Shown here: piece after piece, positions 17,369 to 20,894 of the stretch
Layout: the number at the start of each line of letters is the position of its first letter
Position numbering within the stretch: the stretch's first letter is position 1
Origin: Longispora fulva
GTDB lineage: Bacteria; Actinomycetota; Actinomycetes; Mycobacteriales; Micromonosporaceae
NCBI RefSeq assembly: GCF_015751905.1
Contig: NZ_JADOUF010000001.1
Location: 806,001-870,000 of the forward strand
DNA length: 64,000 nucleotides
Direction: 5' to 3'
Position numbers and translations under genes: made by a program
Notes under the pieces: model-generated
Told to the model about the DNA's origin: nothing
What the model saw: the letters and a program-made list of their open reading frames with translations, nothing else
Database searches by the model: none

Positions 17369-17516
17369 ACCATCACCGGAGCCATTCTCCGGGAATAGCC
17401 CGAGGCCCACGAGAATGGTCGTGAAGGACGTCCCCGAAAAAGCGTTGCGATGGCTGGCACTGGAAATTATGGTTGTCACATCACGTCGAACGACACCGAC
17501 CGAAGGAGGGGAAGAC

Positions 17517-17648
17517 ATGACGCGGACCGCCACCACGAACTGGCAGCGAGTCGCACTGCGCGGCGATGTCGTCGTGCACATGTCCAACCGGCCCTTCGGG
17601 CATCTGCACCCGAAGCCGTATGTGAATATGGGCAGGTGGCAGGCGTAG
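17517..17648 (+). CDS. 43-residue small protein, unknown
   Basis: The ATG at 17517 is preceded by an excellent ribosome site (AGGAGGGG, 17504-17511), and a terminator with a T-tract follows about 17 bases after the stop. This supports a real small gene. The frame is open back to 17361, but that part reads as intergenic. The C-terminal half is rich in His, Pro and aromatic residues (HMSNRPFGHLHPKPYVN). It has no signal peptide or membrane helix. Its neighbour on the right is the tRNA array. Confidence 0.55.
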   Translation: MTRTATTNWQRVALRGDVVVHMSNRPFGHLHPKPYVNMGRWQA

Positions 17649-17665
17649 CACATCCAGTGCCGCCG

Positions 17666-17697
17666 CCGCCCCGTCCCCATCGGACAGGGCGGTTTTT
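17666..17697 (+). terminator. Rho-independent terminator with T-tract
   Basis: An 11-bp stem with one mismatch (17666-17676 with 17682-17692, loop CCATC) is followed directly by TTTTT. It separates the 43-residue ORF from the tRNA array. Confidence 0.85.
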
Positions 17698-17720
17698 CGT
17701 TTACCTGGTCTGCGCATCCC

Positions 17721-17784
17721 GCGGACTGTGCAGCTCACCAGCCTCCCGAACTGGCGGTCGCAGGTTCGATTCCTGCCGCCCGCG
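17721..17784 (+). tRNA. tRNA-Gly(CCC)-like, D-arm truncated (probable pseudo-tRNA)
   Basis: The T-arm is perfect (GCAGG TTCGATT CCTGC). The anticodon loop CTCCCGA has T33 and anticodon CCC. Five of seven acceptor pairs form. Only about 10 bases lie between acceptor and anticodon arm, so most of the D-arm is missing. No CCA is encoded. Confidence 0.5.
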
Positions 17785-17912
17785 GCATTGCCGTGCCCAC
17801 GGCGAACTGTCACCTGAGAATTCCACAGCGGATAGCACGAATGACGCGGCGCGCACCTCGCGCGCCGGAAAGTCCAGCACGCCTCGAGAATGCGAATGCT
17901 GGCAGCATCAAT
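17785..17912. other. Unassigned spacer inside tRNA array
   Basis: This stretch contains a strong GC hairpin (GGCGCGC, loop ACCTC, GCGCGCC, near 17849-17867) and a second pairing CCAGCA/TGCTGG. A badly decayed tRNA is conceivable (a GCACGAATGAC D-like stretch and a CTCGAGA T-like loop), but the arms do not pair well enough to call. Confidence 0.4.
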
Positions 17913-17984
17913 GCCCTCTTGGCGTAACTGGCAGCGCGCACGGTTGAAGCCCGTGGGGACCCTGTTCGAGTCAGGGGGAGGGCG
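17913..17984 (+). tRNA. tRNA-Phe(GAA)
   Basis: Complete cloverleaf. Acceptor GCCCTCT/GGAGGGC, D-stem GCGT/GCGC, anticodon stem CACGG/CCGTG with loop TTGAAGC (anticodon GAA), T-arm CCCTG TTCGAGT CAGGG. Discriminator G. CCA is not encoded. Confidence 0.8.
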
Positions 17985-18001
17985 CGATGGTTTTCGCTCG
18001 C

Positions 18002-18073
18002 GGGCCGCGAGCATGGATGGTTATGCTCCGGACTCTTAATCCGGATAGCGGGGTTCAAGTCCCTGGCGGCCCA
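18002..18073 (+). tRNA. tRNA-Lys(CTT)
   Basis: Seven perfect acceptor pairs (GGGCCGC/GCGGCCC), D-stem GCAT/ATGC, anticodon stem CCGGA/TCCGG with loop CTCTTAA (anticodon CTT), T-arm CGGGG TTCAAGT CCCTG. Discriminator A. CCA is not encoded. Confidence 0.83.
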
Positions 18074-18080
18074 CGCACGA

Positions 18081-18152
18081 TCCGGTATCGCCCAACTGGC
18101 AGGGCGCCTGGCTGTTAACCAGGTTGTCGAGGTTCGAGTCCTCGTACCGGAG
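18081..18152 (+). tRNA. tRNA-Asn(GTT)
   Basis: Acceptor TCCGGTA/TACCGGA, D-stem GCCC/GGGC, anticodon stem CCTGG/CCAGG with loop CTGTTAA (anticodon GTT), T-arm CGAGG TTCGAGT CCTCG. Discriminator G. CCA is not encoded. The spacer after it holds a 16-base palindrome (18164-18179). Confidence 0.83.
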
Positions 18153-18182
18153 CTCAGCACGATGCGGAGGATCCTCCGCGAT

Positions 18183-18254
18183 GCCCGCGTAGCTCAACGG
18201 AAGAGCACCTCGCTTACAACGAGGGGGCCGGGGGTTCGACACCCTCCGCGGGTA
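18183..18254 (+). tRNA. tRNA-Val(TAC)
   Basis: Acceptor GCCCGCG/CGCGGGT (G-T at the end), D-stem GCTC/GAGC with a short 7-base loop, anticodon stem CCTCG/CGAGG with loop CTTACAA (anticodon TAC), T-arm GGGGG TTCGACA CCCTC. Discriminator A. No CCA. Confidence 0.83.
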
Positions 18255-18287
18255 CGGCACCGGCGTCCTCGGACCCGGTATCGCCAT

Positions 18288-18360
18288 GGTGTCTGTGGTG
18301 TAAGGAAAGCACGCCGGACTGTGACTCCGGCGGACGTGGGTTCGACTCCCCGTGGACACC
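18288..18360 (+). tRNA. tRNA-His(GTG)
   Basis: Read with G-1 at 18288 opposite C73 at 18360, the His identity pair is present and all seven acceptor positions pair (GTGTCTG/TGGACAC, two wobbles). D-stem GTGT/GCAC, anticodon stem CCGGA/TCCGG with loop CTGTGAC (anticodon GTG). The T-stem has two mismatches. No CCA. Confidence 0.78.
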
Positions 18361-18364
18361 CTGA

Positions 18365-18449
18365 GCGCGTCGTGGACGGCGGCACGTCCAGCGGCCTGTA
18401 AAGCCGCCACCTTCGGGTAGACCTGGGTCGGCACCAGGGGCGCGCACCA
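18365..18449 (+). tRNA. tRNA-Tyr(GTA), class II with long variable arm and encoded CCA
   Basis: Acceptor GCGCGTC/GGCGCGC, D-stem GGAC/GTCC, anticodon stem GCGGC/GCCGC with loop CTGTAAA (anticodon GTA). The variable arm is a hairpin ACC TTCG GGT. T-stem CCTGG/CCAGG is perfect, but the T-loop is GTCGGCA rather than TTCRANN. It ends ACCA, the only array member with encoded CCA. Confidence 0.75.
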
Positions 18450-18450
18450 T

Positions 18451-18524
18451 ACCCTCGTAGCTCAGCGGAGTAGAGCGTCCGGTTCCGAGCCGGAAGGCCG
18501 CAGGTTCGAATCCTGCCGGGGGTA
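18451..18524 (+). tRNA. tRNA-Arg(CCG)
   Basis: Fully canonical fold. Acceptor ACCCTCG/CGGGGGT, D-stem GCTC/GAGC, anticodon stem TCCGG/CCGGA with loop TTCCGAG (anticodon CCG), T-arm GCAGG TTCGAAT CCTGC. It begins one base after the CCA of tRNA-Tyr. Confidence 0.85.
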
Positions 18525-18529
18525 CGCAT

Positions 18530-18605
18530 GATCTCGTGGCTCTCCGGGCGGGGAGGCGCGCCCGCGCGACGGGTGCGCGGTCCGGTTCGACTCCGGGCGG
18601 GATCG
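18530..18605 (+). tRNA. tRNA-like element, possible tRNA-Arg(GCG) with C33
   Basis: Acceptor GATCTCG/CGGGATC pairs fully and the T-arm TCCGG TTCGACT CCGGG is sound. The anticodon stem CGCCC/GGGTG encloses loop GCGCGAC, which reads as anticodon GCG but has C instead of the near-universal T33. The D-stem is weak. It may be decaying or specialised. Confidence 0.5.
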
Positions 18606-18635
18606 CGATGCCATCCGCTGTGGAACTCTCCACGG

Positions 18636-20894
18636 TCACACCACCCGGCCTCCGCCCACCACAACCTCCCGCGCCGCCCGCGCCAGCCGCTCATCGTGTG
18701 GCCGGCCCAGTTCTCGCGCGAGCCCGATCACCCGCTCCAGCACCGCCAACGCCTCCTCACCGCGACCCGCCACCCGGCACGTCTCGGCGTAGGAGTGCAG
18801 ACAGTCGATCTCCAACTGCACCTCCGCCAACGGCTCCAACAGCTCGAACGCCCGCCGATGGTGGTCCAGCGCCTCGTCGAGCGACCCCATGACCCGCAAC
18901 GCGACCCCGAGATAGTTGTGGCACCACGCCTGGCTGTGGTGCAGATTGTGCCGCTCGGCCAGCCGTAACGCCTCGTGCAACGCGCGCAGCGACTCCGCCG
19001 GATCGTCCGGCGCCAGGGCGACACCGAGGGTCACCAGGCCGGTGATCTGGGCGGGTCCGTCGGCCAGGGCGATGGATGCCCGGGCGAGGTCGACGGCCTC
19101 GTCGCGTCGGCCGAGGTGCAGGGTCACCCAGCCGTCGAAGGCCAGCGCCTGGGACTGGCCGGCGCGGCGGCCGAGTCGCTCGAACAGTTCGCGGGCCCGC
19201 CGGAAGTGTGCCTGGGCGGCTGCGAGGTCGCCGAGGTCGCGGTGTACGAATCCGGTGCGCAGCGCCAAGCCGGCCGCGAGGTCGTCGTCGTCCGGCCCGG
19301 AACGTTCGGCCAGTTCGTAGGCGGCGAGCGCCTCGGTGACGCGGCCGGCGGCGGCGCGGGCGAAGCCGAGGTCGGCGAGCAGTGCCGCCCGCTGCCGGTC
19401 GCGGCCGAGGCGTCCCGCGGCGGACGCGGCGGCTTCGAGCATGCGCGCCTGGTCGTCGGTGCCGCGGTGCCGGAAGAACCAGACCCGCATGGCCTGGGGC
19501 AGGTCGGCCACCGCCTCGTCCGCGCCGAGGCGCACGGCGGCGTCGAAGCAGGCGACCAGGTTGTCGTACTCGAGGTCGAACCAGGCCATGGCCCGCGCCG
19601 GGTCGCCGGGCGCGGGATCAGGGCGGTGCGGCGAGGGCAGCGTCCGGTCGTGGGCGACGGCCTGGGCGAGGTAGTGGCGCAGGACCCGGTGCACGGCGGC
19701 GTCGACCTGCGGCTCCTCGTCGGCGGCGATGTCCGCGGCGAATCGTCGGATCAGATCGTGCATCCGGTACCGGCCGGGGGACAGCTCCTGTAGCAGGTGG
19801 GCGTCGACCAGTTCCTCGAGTACCTGTTCTGCGGGCAGGTCGGCGAGCGCGCCGGCGACCGGGGCGTCGAAGTCGGTGCCCGGCAGTACGCCCAGTAGTC
19901 GGAAAACGCGGCGCTGCGCAGGGTTGAGTTGTCGCAGCGACATGCCGAACACGGCGTCGAAGCGGCCCGCGTTGTCGCGCAGCCGCTCGGCCAGCACCGC
20001 CACGGTCCAGCCGGGGCGGTGCCGCAGCCGGGCGCCGGCCATCCGCAGGGCCAGGGGGAGACCGCCGCACTGGCGCAGCACCTGACCGACGGCGTCGTCG
20101 TCGGCGAGGGTGAGCCCGGCGGCCCGCCCGAACAGGTGCGCGGCGTCGTCGCCGGCCAGGGGCTCCAACGACACCGGGGGCACCCCGTCCAGGCTCACCA
20201 GCCGGTGGCGGCTGGTGACCAGGACCGCGGACTTGCCGGCGCCGGGCAGCAGCGGGCGGACCTGCTCCGCGTCGACCGCGTTGTCGAGCACGACGAGGGC
20301 CCGCCGGCGGGACAGCTCCGACCGCCAGAGGGCCGCGCGTTCCCCCATGCCAGCTGGGGGGTGCGCGATGTCCAACGCGCCGAGCAGCCGGCCCAACGCG
20401 GCCTGCGGCTCCAGGGGTTCCTGGCCGGGGGTGAAGCCGTGCAGGTCCAGATAAAGACCGCCATCCGGGTACGCCGGGGCGAGCCTGTGGGCCACGTGCA
20501 CCGCGAGGCTGGTCTTGCCCACGCCACCCATGCCGTCGATCGCGACAGCGCCCGCGGTGCGTAGCAGCTCCTCGACCAGCGCGGACTCCGCTGCCCGGCC
20601 GGTGAAGTCGAACAGGTCGGCCGGCAGGTCGTTGCGGCGCGGGGCGGGCGCCGCGCCGGCCTTGGCCGCCTCGGCCCACCCCGCGCGCAGCGGACGGGGG
20701 TCGCGGCCCACGACCTTGCACAGCGCCACGACGGCCTCCCACGGCGGCACGAGCCGACCGGCCAGGTACCGCGACAGTGAGGAGCTGCTCAGACCCGCCT
20801 GAACGGCGAGGGCGCGCAGGCTGAGCCCGCTCAGCTCCTTGATCCGGGCGAGCTGGGCCACCAGGTGCTCTTGCGGGCTGGACACCTGCAACAC
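18636..20894 (-). CDS. XRE-NB-ARC-TPR signal-transduction ATPase / regulator
   Basis: 752 residues. An N-terminal XRE-type helix-turn-helix (about 10-65: SLRALAVQAGLSSSSLSRYLAG) is followed by an NB-ARC/STAND ATPase with Walker A GGVGKT (in AIDGMGGVGKTSLAV), Walker B RRALVVLDN and the sensor TSRHRLV. Residues about 440-740 are TPR helices. STAND proteins of this layout are usually transcriptional regulators. The start is GTG 20894, with GTG 20885 as an alternative. It is divergent from an AhpD-like gene, with a tandem 10-base repeat in the gap that may be its operator. Confidence 0.88.
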   Translation of the reverse strand: MLQVSSPQEHLVAQLARIKELSGLSLRALAVQAGLSSSSLSRYLAGRLVPPWEAVVALCKVVGRDPRPLRAGWAEAAKAGAAPAPRRNDLPADLFDFTGRAAESALVEELLRTAGAVAIDGMGGVGKTSLAVHVAHRLAPAYPDGGLYLDLHGFTPGQEPLEPQAALGRLLGALDIAHPPAGMGERAALWRSELSRRRALVVLDNAVDAEQVRPLLPGAGKSAVLVTSRHRLVSLDGVPPVSLEPLAGDDAAHLFGRAAGLTLADDDAVGQVLRQCGGLPLALRMAGARLRHRPGWTVAVLAERLRDNAGRFDAVFGMSLRQLNPAQRRVFRLLGVLPGTDFDAPVAGALADLPAEQVLEELVDAHLLQELSPGRYRMHDLIRRFAADIAADEEPQVDAAVHRVLRHYLAQAVAHDRTLPSPHRPDPAPGDPARAMAWFDLEYDNLVACFDAAVRLGADEAVADLPQAMRVWFFRHRGTDDQARMLEAAASAAGRLGRDRQRAALLADLGFARAAAGRVTEALAAYELAERSGPDDDDLAAGLALRTGFVHRDLGDLAAAQAHFRRARELFERLGRRAGQSQALAFDGWVTLHLGRRDEAVDLARASIALADGPAQITGLVTLGVALAPDDPAESLRALHEALRLAERHNLHHSQAWCHNYLGVALRVMGSLDEALDHHRRAFELLEPLAEVQLEIDCLHSYAETCRVAGRGEEALAVLERVIGLARELGRPHDERLARAAREVVVGGGRVV

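Follow-up and report, generated by a model that had tools for sequence, protein, structure and literature searches.

The purpose of the tRNA arrays found in phages, plasmids and chromosomes is an old open question. It is raised again by a locus of Longispora fulva, in which tRNA genes are packed closely together within a stretch of 64,000 nucleotides, here called the window (C1:806001-870000 of an 8.68-Mb single contig). As far as their main texts go, two studies (PMC5966550; PMC12803027) describe tRNA array units of mycobacterial chromosomes, plasmids and phages as dense, divergent and redundant tRNA sets, in which full arrays serve 19-20 amino acids, an HNH endonuclease lies inside and a link to mobile replicons exists; a putative antidefence role is named for them. 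The array of the window, array A, is one of this genome's three units of a supernumerary tRNA array family, and each unit lies behind a leader that lists the products of its array.

The tRNA genes of array A and their relatives

ARAGORN, run on the window, found eight plus-strand tRNA genes at 17913-18606, and six tRNAs of the array reached the Rfam gathering score in a scan of the window. The elements of the array are as follows.

17721-17784, plus strand: decayed tRNA-Trp, earlier called Gly(CCC)-like (Rfam score, alignment, position in relatives)
17913-17985, plus strand: tRNA-Phe(gaa), discriminator G (ARAGORN, Rfam)
18002-18074, plus strand: tRNA-Lys(ctt) (ARAGORN, Rfam)
18081-18153, plus strand: tRNA-Asn(gtt) (ARAGORN, Rfam)
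18183-18255, plus strand: tRNA-Val(tac) (ARAGORN, Rfam)
18289-18361, plus strand: tRNA-His(gtg); the G at 18288 could act as G-1 (ARAGORN, Rfam)
18365-18449, plus strand: tRNA-Tyr(gta), CCA encoded (ARAGORN)
18451-18525, plus strand: tRNA-Arg(ccg) (ARAGORN, Rfam)
18530-18606, plus strand: degenerate tRNA-like element called Arg(gcg), without U33; relatives have tRNA-Cys there (ARAGORN, a poor call; Rfam)

The ARAGORN run bore out the dense array that had been predicted. Eight of the nine predicted elements stood as ARAGORN tRNAs, and the ninth, Gly(CCC), is better read as a decayed tRNA-Trp, with 23.4 bits against the Rfam cut-off of 29 and no D-arm. Two observations led to this reading: an alignment links the element to the 3' half of the tRNA-Trp in sister array B and extends into the conserved 5' box (134 columns, 69%, E 3e-9), and a tRNA-Trp stands at the matching position in 82 of 108 related arrays. 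In Rfam, the last element (18530-18606) matches tRNA-Sec best, with a score (23.1 bits) under the cut-off; it is the position of this element before the 3' box, where relatives have tRNA-Cys, that suggests a former tRNA-Cys. The tRNA-Tyr is the only tRNA of array A with an encoded CCA, as had been claimed. The absence of CCA is no mark of foreignness, since it is likewise not encoded in several tRNAs outside the array, such as Asn(gtt) and Lys(ttt).

Every anticodon of array A is also present in a tRNA elsewhere in the genome. Sister array B contains 12 tRNAs (C1:2098718-2100126), sister array C contains four (near C1:4286777-4287090), and a further 3' array remnant lies at 227 kb. Together, arrays A, B and C hold 24 ARAGORN tRNAs with 24 different anticodons, as if one tRNA set had been split. 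For most of these tRNAs, the nearest tRNA of the same isotype lies in an array of another genome and not in the genome's own set (Tyr, 85% versus 65%), with Asn and Ala as exceptions. The tRNA-Lys(ctt) of array A, for instance, is 95% identical to the array tRNA-Lys of relative G021 and 74% identical to the nearest non-array tRNA-Lys of its own genome. The anticodon loop is unlike that of the non-array copies in 17 of the 24 array tRNAs, as in tRNA-Phe of array A (TTGAAGC versus CTGAAAA in the copy outside). Arrays B and C contain Leu tRNAs of 74-76 nt that lack a long variable arm, and such tRNAs are found outside arrays as well (Leu-tag, Leu-caa).

An odd tRNA with a CAT anticodon and an unusual D-arm and T-loop lies just past the 3' box of both array B and the 227-kb remnant (L031:8718-8791, minus strand; L036:673-745, plus strand), and similar tRNAs close the arrays of G018, G021 and G032. 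This element is possibly a tRNA-Ile2, or no tRNA at all. A pattern search for it with one mismatch allowed matched 162 of 300 genomes, which was too loose, and was left unused. Directly 3' of array C, and convergent with it, lies a gene for a MazF/PemK-like protein (PF02452, E 1e-12; L032:8220-8747, plus strand). Toxins of the MazF/PemK family can cut RNA.

The surroundings of array A were compared with G001, the sole same-genus genome in the comparison. The NB-ARC and CMD neighbours are conserved there (76% DNA identity over 2.9 kb), and no tRNA lies beside them in G001. Array A is therefore outside the syntenic core. In the original prediction, an ordinary tRNA operon was to be recognized by genes that are the only copies in the genome and syntenic in all relatives; here, copies exist elsewhere and the array is absent at the matching place in G001, and on both grounds an ordinary housekeeping tRNA operon was rejected. 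A role for the NB-ARC neighbour was also rejected. Since its family is large (52 matches in G001 alone) and a relative occurs in only 3 of 113 other array loci, this protein is probably unrelated to the array. The statement that no phage genes are in view agrees with the Pfam scan of 14 flanking window proteins, in which no phage family was seen, so that array A does not qualify as a prophage tRNA cluster. Among these surroundings, a 105-aa ORF without a Pfam family lies directly before a radical SAM gene (window:14926-16236), possibly as a peptide-modification pair. At C1:768614-768690 (L035), the 3' part of the tRNA-Arg(acg) of C1:6492256 is repeated beside a CRISPR-repeat-like stretch, which looks like an integration scar.

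Six relatives were found to carry arrays when 61 genomes were searched. Their arrays comprise 21 tRNAs in G021, 35 in G011, 22 in G032 and 24 in G018; G013 has split arrays, and G001 has one small array. Arrays are also present on Actinoplanes xinjiangensis and Mycobacterium intracellulare (chimaera) plasmids, and array A shares 84% DNA identity with the latter over 21% of the query. Like the mycobacterial tRNA array units, as far as these are described in the main texts cited above, array A consists of dense, divergent and redundant tRNAs, with eight in 0.69 kb (at least two tRNA genes per kb are asked of such a unit). It differs in having only eight tRNAs, whereas the definition in the main text of PMC5966550 requires 20, a number reached by relatives such as G011 and G032. 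In arrays A, B and C alike, a short ORF that ends in ...GRW comes first; a terminator, in some cases a tRNA-Trp, the 5' box, the tRNAs and a 3' box, the reverse complement of the 5' box, follow in this order. Of 354 genomes of one family, apparently Micromonosporaceae, 97 contain the 5' box pattern with at most two mismatches; the reversed box gave none among the matches listed for the same 354 genomes, and the pattern occurred in 0 of 394 genomes of a phylum sample outside the family. The box was also found on four predicted viral contigs of IMG/VR, with an array behind it in each, and two of these contigs carry the same leader as G011 and G287. Another IMG/VR match, L071, contained no tRNA and was dropped. 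Across genomes, the arrays are scattered and not syntenic.

A leader that lists the tRNAs of its array

The small ORF noted in the original prediction, 17517-17648, is an attenuator-like leader, with a promoter-like site, a Shine-Dalgarno sequence, an ORF of 43 codons and an intrinsic terminator. The original prediction had passed over this role, as it had the inverted boxes that bound the array, the two sister arrays and the origin of the tRNA-Trp remnant. The parts of the leader region and the boxes are listed below.

17445-17473, plus strand: sigma-70-like promoter, -35 TTGCGA, 17-nt spacer, -10 TATGGT (same kind of site before other leaders)
17503-17511, plus strand: Shine-Dalgarno sequence AAGGAGGGG (leader script)
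17517-17648, plus strand: leader ORF, 43 aa, with codons for the seven intact array isotypes F, K, N, V, H, Y and R (leader script)
17635-17640, plus strand: GGTGGC, placed at a constant distance from the stop codon; would act as antiterminator strand (complement of the 5' arm of the terminator)
17648-17660, plus strand: small hairpin starting at the stop codon, GCAC/GTGC (folding)
17666-17697, plus strand: intrinsic terminator, GC-rich hairpin followed by TTTTT (leader script, pairing analysis)
17818-17839, plus strand: 5' box, one half of the inverted repeat around the tRNAs (pattern, pairing analysis)
18609-18628, plus strand: 3' box, reverse complement of the 5' box (pattern, pairing analysis)

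Leaders were sought with a script that takes no account of amino-acid content; it accepts ORFs of 33-60 codons that have a ribosome-binding site and are closely followed by a hairpin with a T-tail. Of 115 loci scanned, seven without an array at the box were left out (L066, L135, L147, L163, L166, L195, L207), which left 108. The arrangement expected of an attenuator, a short ORF with a ribosome-binding site directly before an intrinsic terminator, is present in the window and was detected by the script at 104 of the 108 arrays, compared with 47 of 1500 stretches taken at random from the window; under strict criteria, the counts were 102 of 108 and 16 of 1500. The script gave no leader at L161, L167, L175 and L232. 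The leaders of L175 and of L169, which the script had miscalled, were read by hand and entered the coverage and dosage counts, with L169 excluded at the codon level. A promoter-like site lies upstream of 83 of 96 leaders, where 0.78 would be expected from mononucleotide shuffling. Before arrays of another kind, on a mycobacterial plasmid (L072, one place) and in Streptomyces phages (L246, three places; L247, one), the leader finder detected none.

The leader of array A covers all seven of the array's isotypes, whereas the leader of array C would cover two of the seven. The counts below exclude duplicates (L070, L235, L237), identical leader-array pairs, and arrays that lacked a 3' box or carried no more than two tRNAs, which left 79 complete arrays. 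Over these, the leader holds 921 of 955 encoded isotypes; 53 arrays are fully covered and 26 incompletely. Arrays with at most eight isotypes (n = 25) are covered at 153 of 153, against 133.4 ± 3.2 with permuted leaders, and at 80 of 80 against 66.8 ± 2.6 when one array per leader cluster is counted. For arrays with 15-20 isotypes, coverage is 484 of 502 against 469.7 ± 2.6. Because small and large arrays each exceed the permuted coverage, the match does not reflect array size only. Within one genus (28 arrays), 335 isotypes are covered against 304.9 ± 6.3 (P 2e-4), and the correspondence holds when leaders are grouped into 34, 25 or 12 clusters (median P 0.0033, the minimum possible with 300 permutations). 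At the codon level, 1113 of 1241 are matched against 993 ± 12, the dosage correlation between leader and array is 0.39 against a permutation maximum of 0.14, and the number of isotypes correlates with the number of distinct leader amino acids (Spearman 0.68). The correspondence is statistically strong, and the leader codons match what the operon supplies, as they do in an attenuator.

The same is seen for single amino acids. When an array of the 79 encodes a given tRNA, the leader holds the amino acid in 43 of 43 cases for Cys, 59/59 for Glu, 13/14 for Phe, 42/43 for His, 34/35 for Ile, 32/35 for Asp, 49/51 for Val, 41/46 for Tyr, 31/36 for Asn and 30/43 for Lys, so that tRNA-Lys is missed in 13 of the 43 arrays that encode it. 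When the tRNA is absent, the amino acid is held in 10 of 44 leaders for Ile, 12/36 for Lys, 27/65 for Phe, 14/33 for Tyr and 17/36 for His. Since leaders also contain 403 of 625 amino acids that are absent from their arrays, the match is one of coverage and not of identity. The 98 unique leaders, two of them read by hand, contain on average 16.8 distinct amino acids, and 12 contain all 20; random 42-residue protein windows contain 15.0 ± 1.6, and 0.25% of them hold twenty. Leaders of arrays with 17-20 isotypes average 19.1. In leader C, Leu, Thr and Arg, the isotypes of array C, make up 54% of the residues versus 23-26% in leaders A and B, and the leader of G001, whose array is Trp-Ser-Arg-Ser, has 11 Ser in 57 residues.

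These observations bear on the view that array A is an island relic, that is, a horizontally acquired and decaying tRNA array without regulated use, of which the leader and the boxes are left over. Two of the nine elements are degenerate, the array is absent at the corresponding place in G001, and a further 3' remnant exists at 227 kb, all of which such a relic would explain. However, the promoter, the Shine-Dalgarno sequence, the leader ORF, the terminator and both boxes are intact, six tRNAs are above the Rfam cut-off, leader A still covers all seven intact isotypes, and the leaders that precede reduced arrays have been retuned and are not broken. An island relic is accordingly considered unlikely.

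The proposed switch and the enclosing boxes

Array A is, with good confidence, a replacement-tRNA operon under ribosome-mediated transcription attenuation. In the proposed mechanism, RNA polymerase would first transcribe the 43-codon leader. A ribosome that finishes the leader would sit on the stop codon and mask the GGTGGC end of the ORF, and the terminator would then form and stop transcription. If any tRNA for a leader codon were missing, the ribosome would stall upstream; the exposed end of the ORF would pair with the 5' arm of the terminator, transcription would continue and the tRNAs would be made. Because the leader names nearly every tRNA of its own array, each tRNA supply would be switched on by its own scarcity. 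Large arrays would require near-pangram leaders, and small arrays would have leaders biased to their few tRNAs.

Pairing was analysed in 96 unique leaders with a usable terminator sequence. The terminator is paired in 921 of 940 cells, and double changes in 4 of 10 pairs show covariation. Leader codons -4 to -2 (GGyGGC) can pair with the 5' arm of the terminator in 530 of 576 cells (96 leaders), and slid registers pair at 0.26-0.56, except for 0.77 and 0.68 at three-base slides. When the 3' arm of the terminator is omitted, the examples printed mostly fold into a stem of the ORF end and the terminator arm around the stop-codon hairpin. Own arms paired better than swapped arms, but at P 0.04 only (one leader per cluster, 40). 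After synonymous resampling of the leader end, 4 of 96 leaders exceeded the resampled complementarity at P ≤ 0.05, which is little excess, and RNAalifold gave no common fold for the aligned antiterminator stretch of the 96 leaders. The putative antiterminator rests on invariance more than on covariation and is the weak part of the switch model. The two decayed elements and the odd tRNA-Phe of array A also count against the attenuation model. T-box control was rejected: the Rfam scan of the window at gathering score returned tRNA only, and none of the 15 matches obtained for 17400-18900 with E values up to 5 was a T-box.

The terminator also bears on codon compensation. Extra tRNA sets that compensate for codon usage are a classic proposal for phages. 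Codon compensation by phage tRNAs is among the subjects discussed in PMC10264068, as far as an excerpt of that paper goes. Under such a proposal, array A would be a constitutive set of extra tRNAs for genes with unusual codon usage, and the arrays do supply many isoacceptors. However, each anticodon of array A is copied elsewhere in the genome and the terminator stands between the promoter and the tRNAs, and this explanation is regarded as very improbable.

Under attenuation, the array tRNAs would probably be cut from a precursor closed by a long helix of the 5' and 3' boxes. The boxes are paired in 633 of 675 cells over 45 distinct pairs, and the distance from box to box ranges from 351 to 4104 nt. 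Double changes occur in 30 cells, compared with 0-2 when the register is slid (permutation z 8.4). The boxes are taken to form a helix by which the precursor would be closed for processing. The boxes could instead be the terminal inverted repeats of a mobile element, with the unit as a transposable cassette; inverted repeats that are copied together covary by nature, and the arrays are scattered, not syntenic. Against this, the leader, the terminator and the tRNA-Trp lie outside the boxes and yet accompany them, and no transposase was found among the neighbouring proteins scanned. A cassette of this kind is judged quite unlikely.

RNA-repair genes and comparison with known systems

An RtcB RNA ligase gene is present in 20 of 114 array loci and lies on the array strand in all 20. 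In 19 of these, it lies between the 5' box and the last tRNA, and the remaining locus is cut by the contig end. A TROVE (Ro60) gene follows 10 arrays on the 3' side, with three matches weak or partial, and an HNH endonuclease lies inside or near 55 arrays of the same 114 loci. In 46 control loci of this genome, none of the three was found (131 kb versus 858 kb). In addition, G011 has a T4-like polynucleotide kinase and an RNA ligase near its array. Neither of the RtcB genes of this genome is near arrays A, B or C; the second of them matches in two pieces (C1:902625-903626, L241). At C1:5223458-5223856, far from every array seen, a stretch has 73% identity to the HNH-gene part of the G018 array.

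The repair genes near arrays point to damaged tRNA. Some arrays are accompanied by genes for RtcB ligase and Ro60-like proteins, and the likely trigger of the switch would therefore be the loss of tRNAs through anticodon nucleases during conflict with phages or rivals. Replenishment after tRNA loss, which the original prediction had put forward, is the best-supported purpose of the array; the supernumerary family occurs also on predicted viral contigs, and the features that would have marked an ordinary operon were not found. It can further be proposed, as a rather likely extension, that the leader is a sensor of the whole tRNA pool. It would act as a checklist of up to twenty tRNAs, and the lack of any one of them would turn on the operon by which just these tRNAs are supplied, together with a ligase for broken tRNAs in some genomes; where an array is cut down or split, here into three units, the leader would be rewritten to its own remaining tRNAs.

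The leader could also sense amino-acid starvation or general stalling, for example by antibiotics, with the tRNAs serving another role such as tRNA-dependent biosynthesis, since such a switch would be opened by stalling of whatever cause. This leaves unexplained, however, why small arrays have their own isotypes listed without exception and why the dosage matches; extra tRNA is no relief for a lack of amino acid, and RtcB in the operon points to RNA damage. A general-stalling sensor is thus held to be improbable.

Ribosome-mediated attenuators are known from the trp, his, leu, ilv and thr operons of amino-acid biosynthesis. The array leaders resemble them in the short leader ORF, the stop codon just before an intrinsic terminator and the codons that match the product of the operon. 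They differ in that a classical leader contains repeated codons for one to three amino acids, whereas array leaders list up to twenty, and in that the product of the array operon is tRNA, whereas classical attenuator operons concern the amino acid. In the RtcR-controlled rtcBA and Rsr (Ro60) operons of Proteobacteria, RtcB ligase and Ro60 protein respond to RNA damage. Some arrays share the RtcB and Ro60 genes with these operons; there, a protein activator senses damage, whereas the arrays would rely on a leader peptide as sensor and include tRNA genes in the operon.

Phage tRNAs with altered anticodon loops are proposed, in the excerpt of PMC10264068, to resist the anticodon nucleases of the host. 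The 17 array tRNAs with loops differing from the non-array copies are similar to these, within what that excerpt describes. Unlike them, the array tRNAs lie mostly on bacterial chromosomes and behind a proposed sensor, and the excerpt describes no regulation. Neither PMC5966550 nor PMC12803027 uses the terms promoter, terminator, attenuation or leader (in the sense of leader peptide) in its main text, and, unlike in the arrays described here, the leader finder found no leader upstream of the mycobacterial plasmid array. The open-access papers searched yielded no account of attenuation or leader peptides for tRNA arrays; because subscription papers and preprints lay outside this search, the novelty is provisional.

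If the proposed gating is true, the leader would be a written record of the purpose of its array, and the replenishment idea would be directly testable with reporters. Such an attenuator would read the whole genetic code instead of one amino acid and would offer a ready-made sensor of tRNA damage, and the co-evolution of a regulator with its product could be read from sequence.
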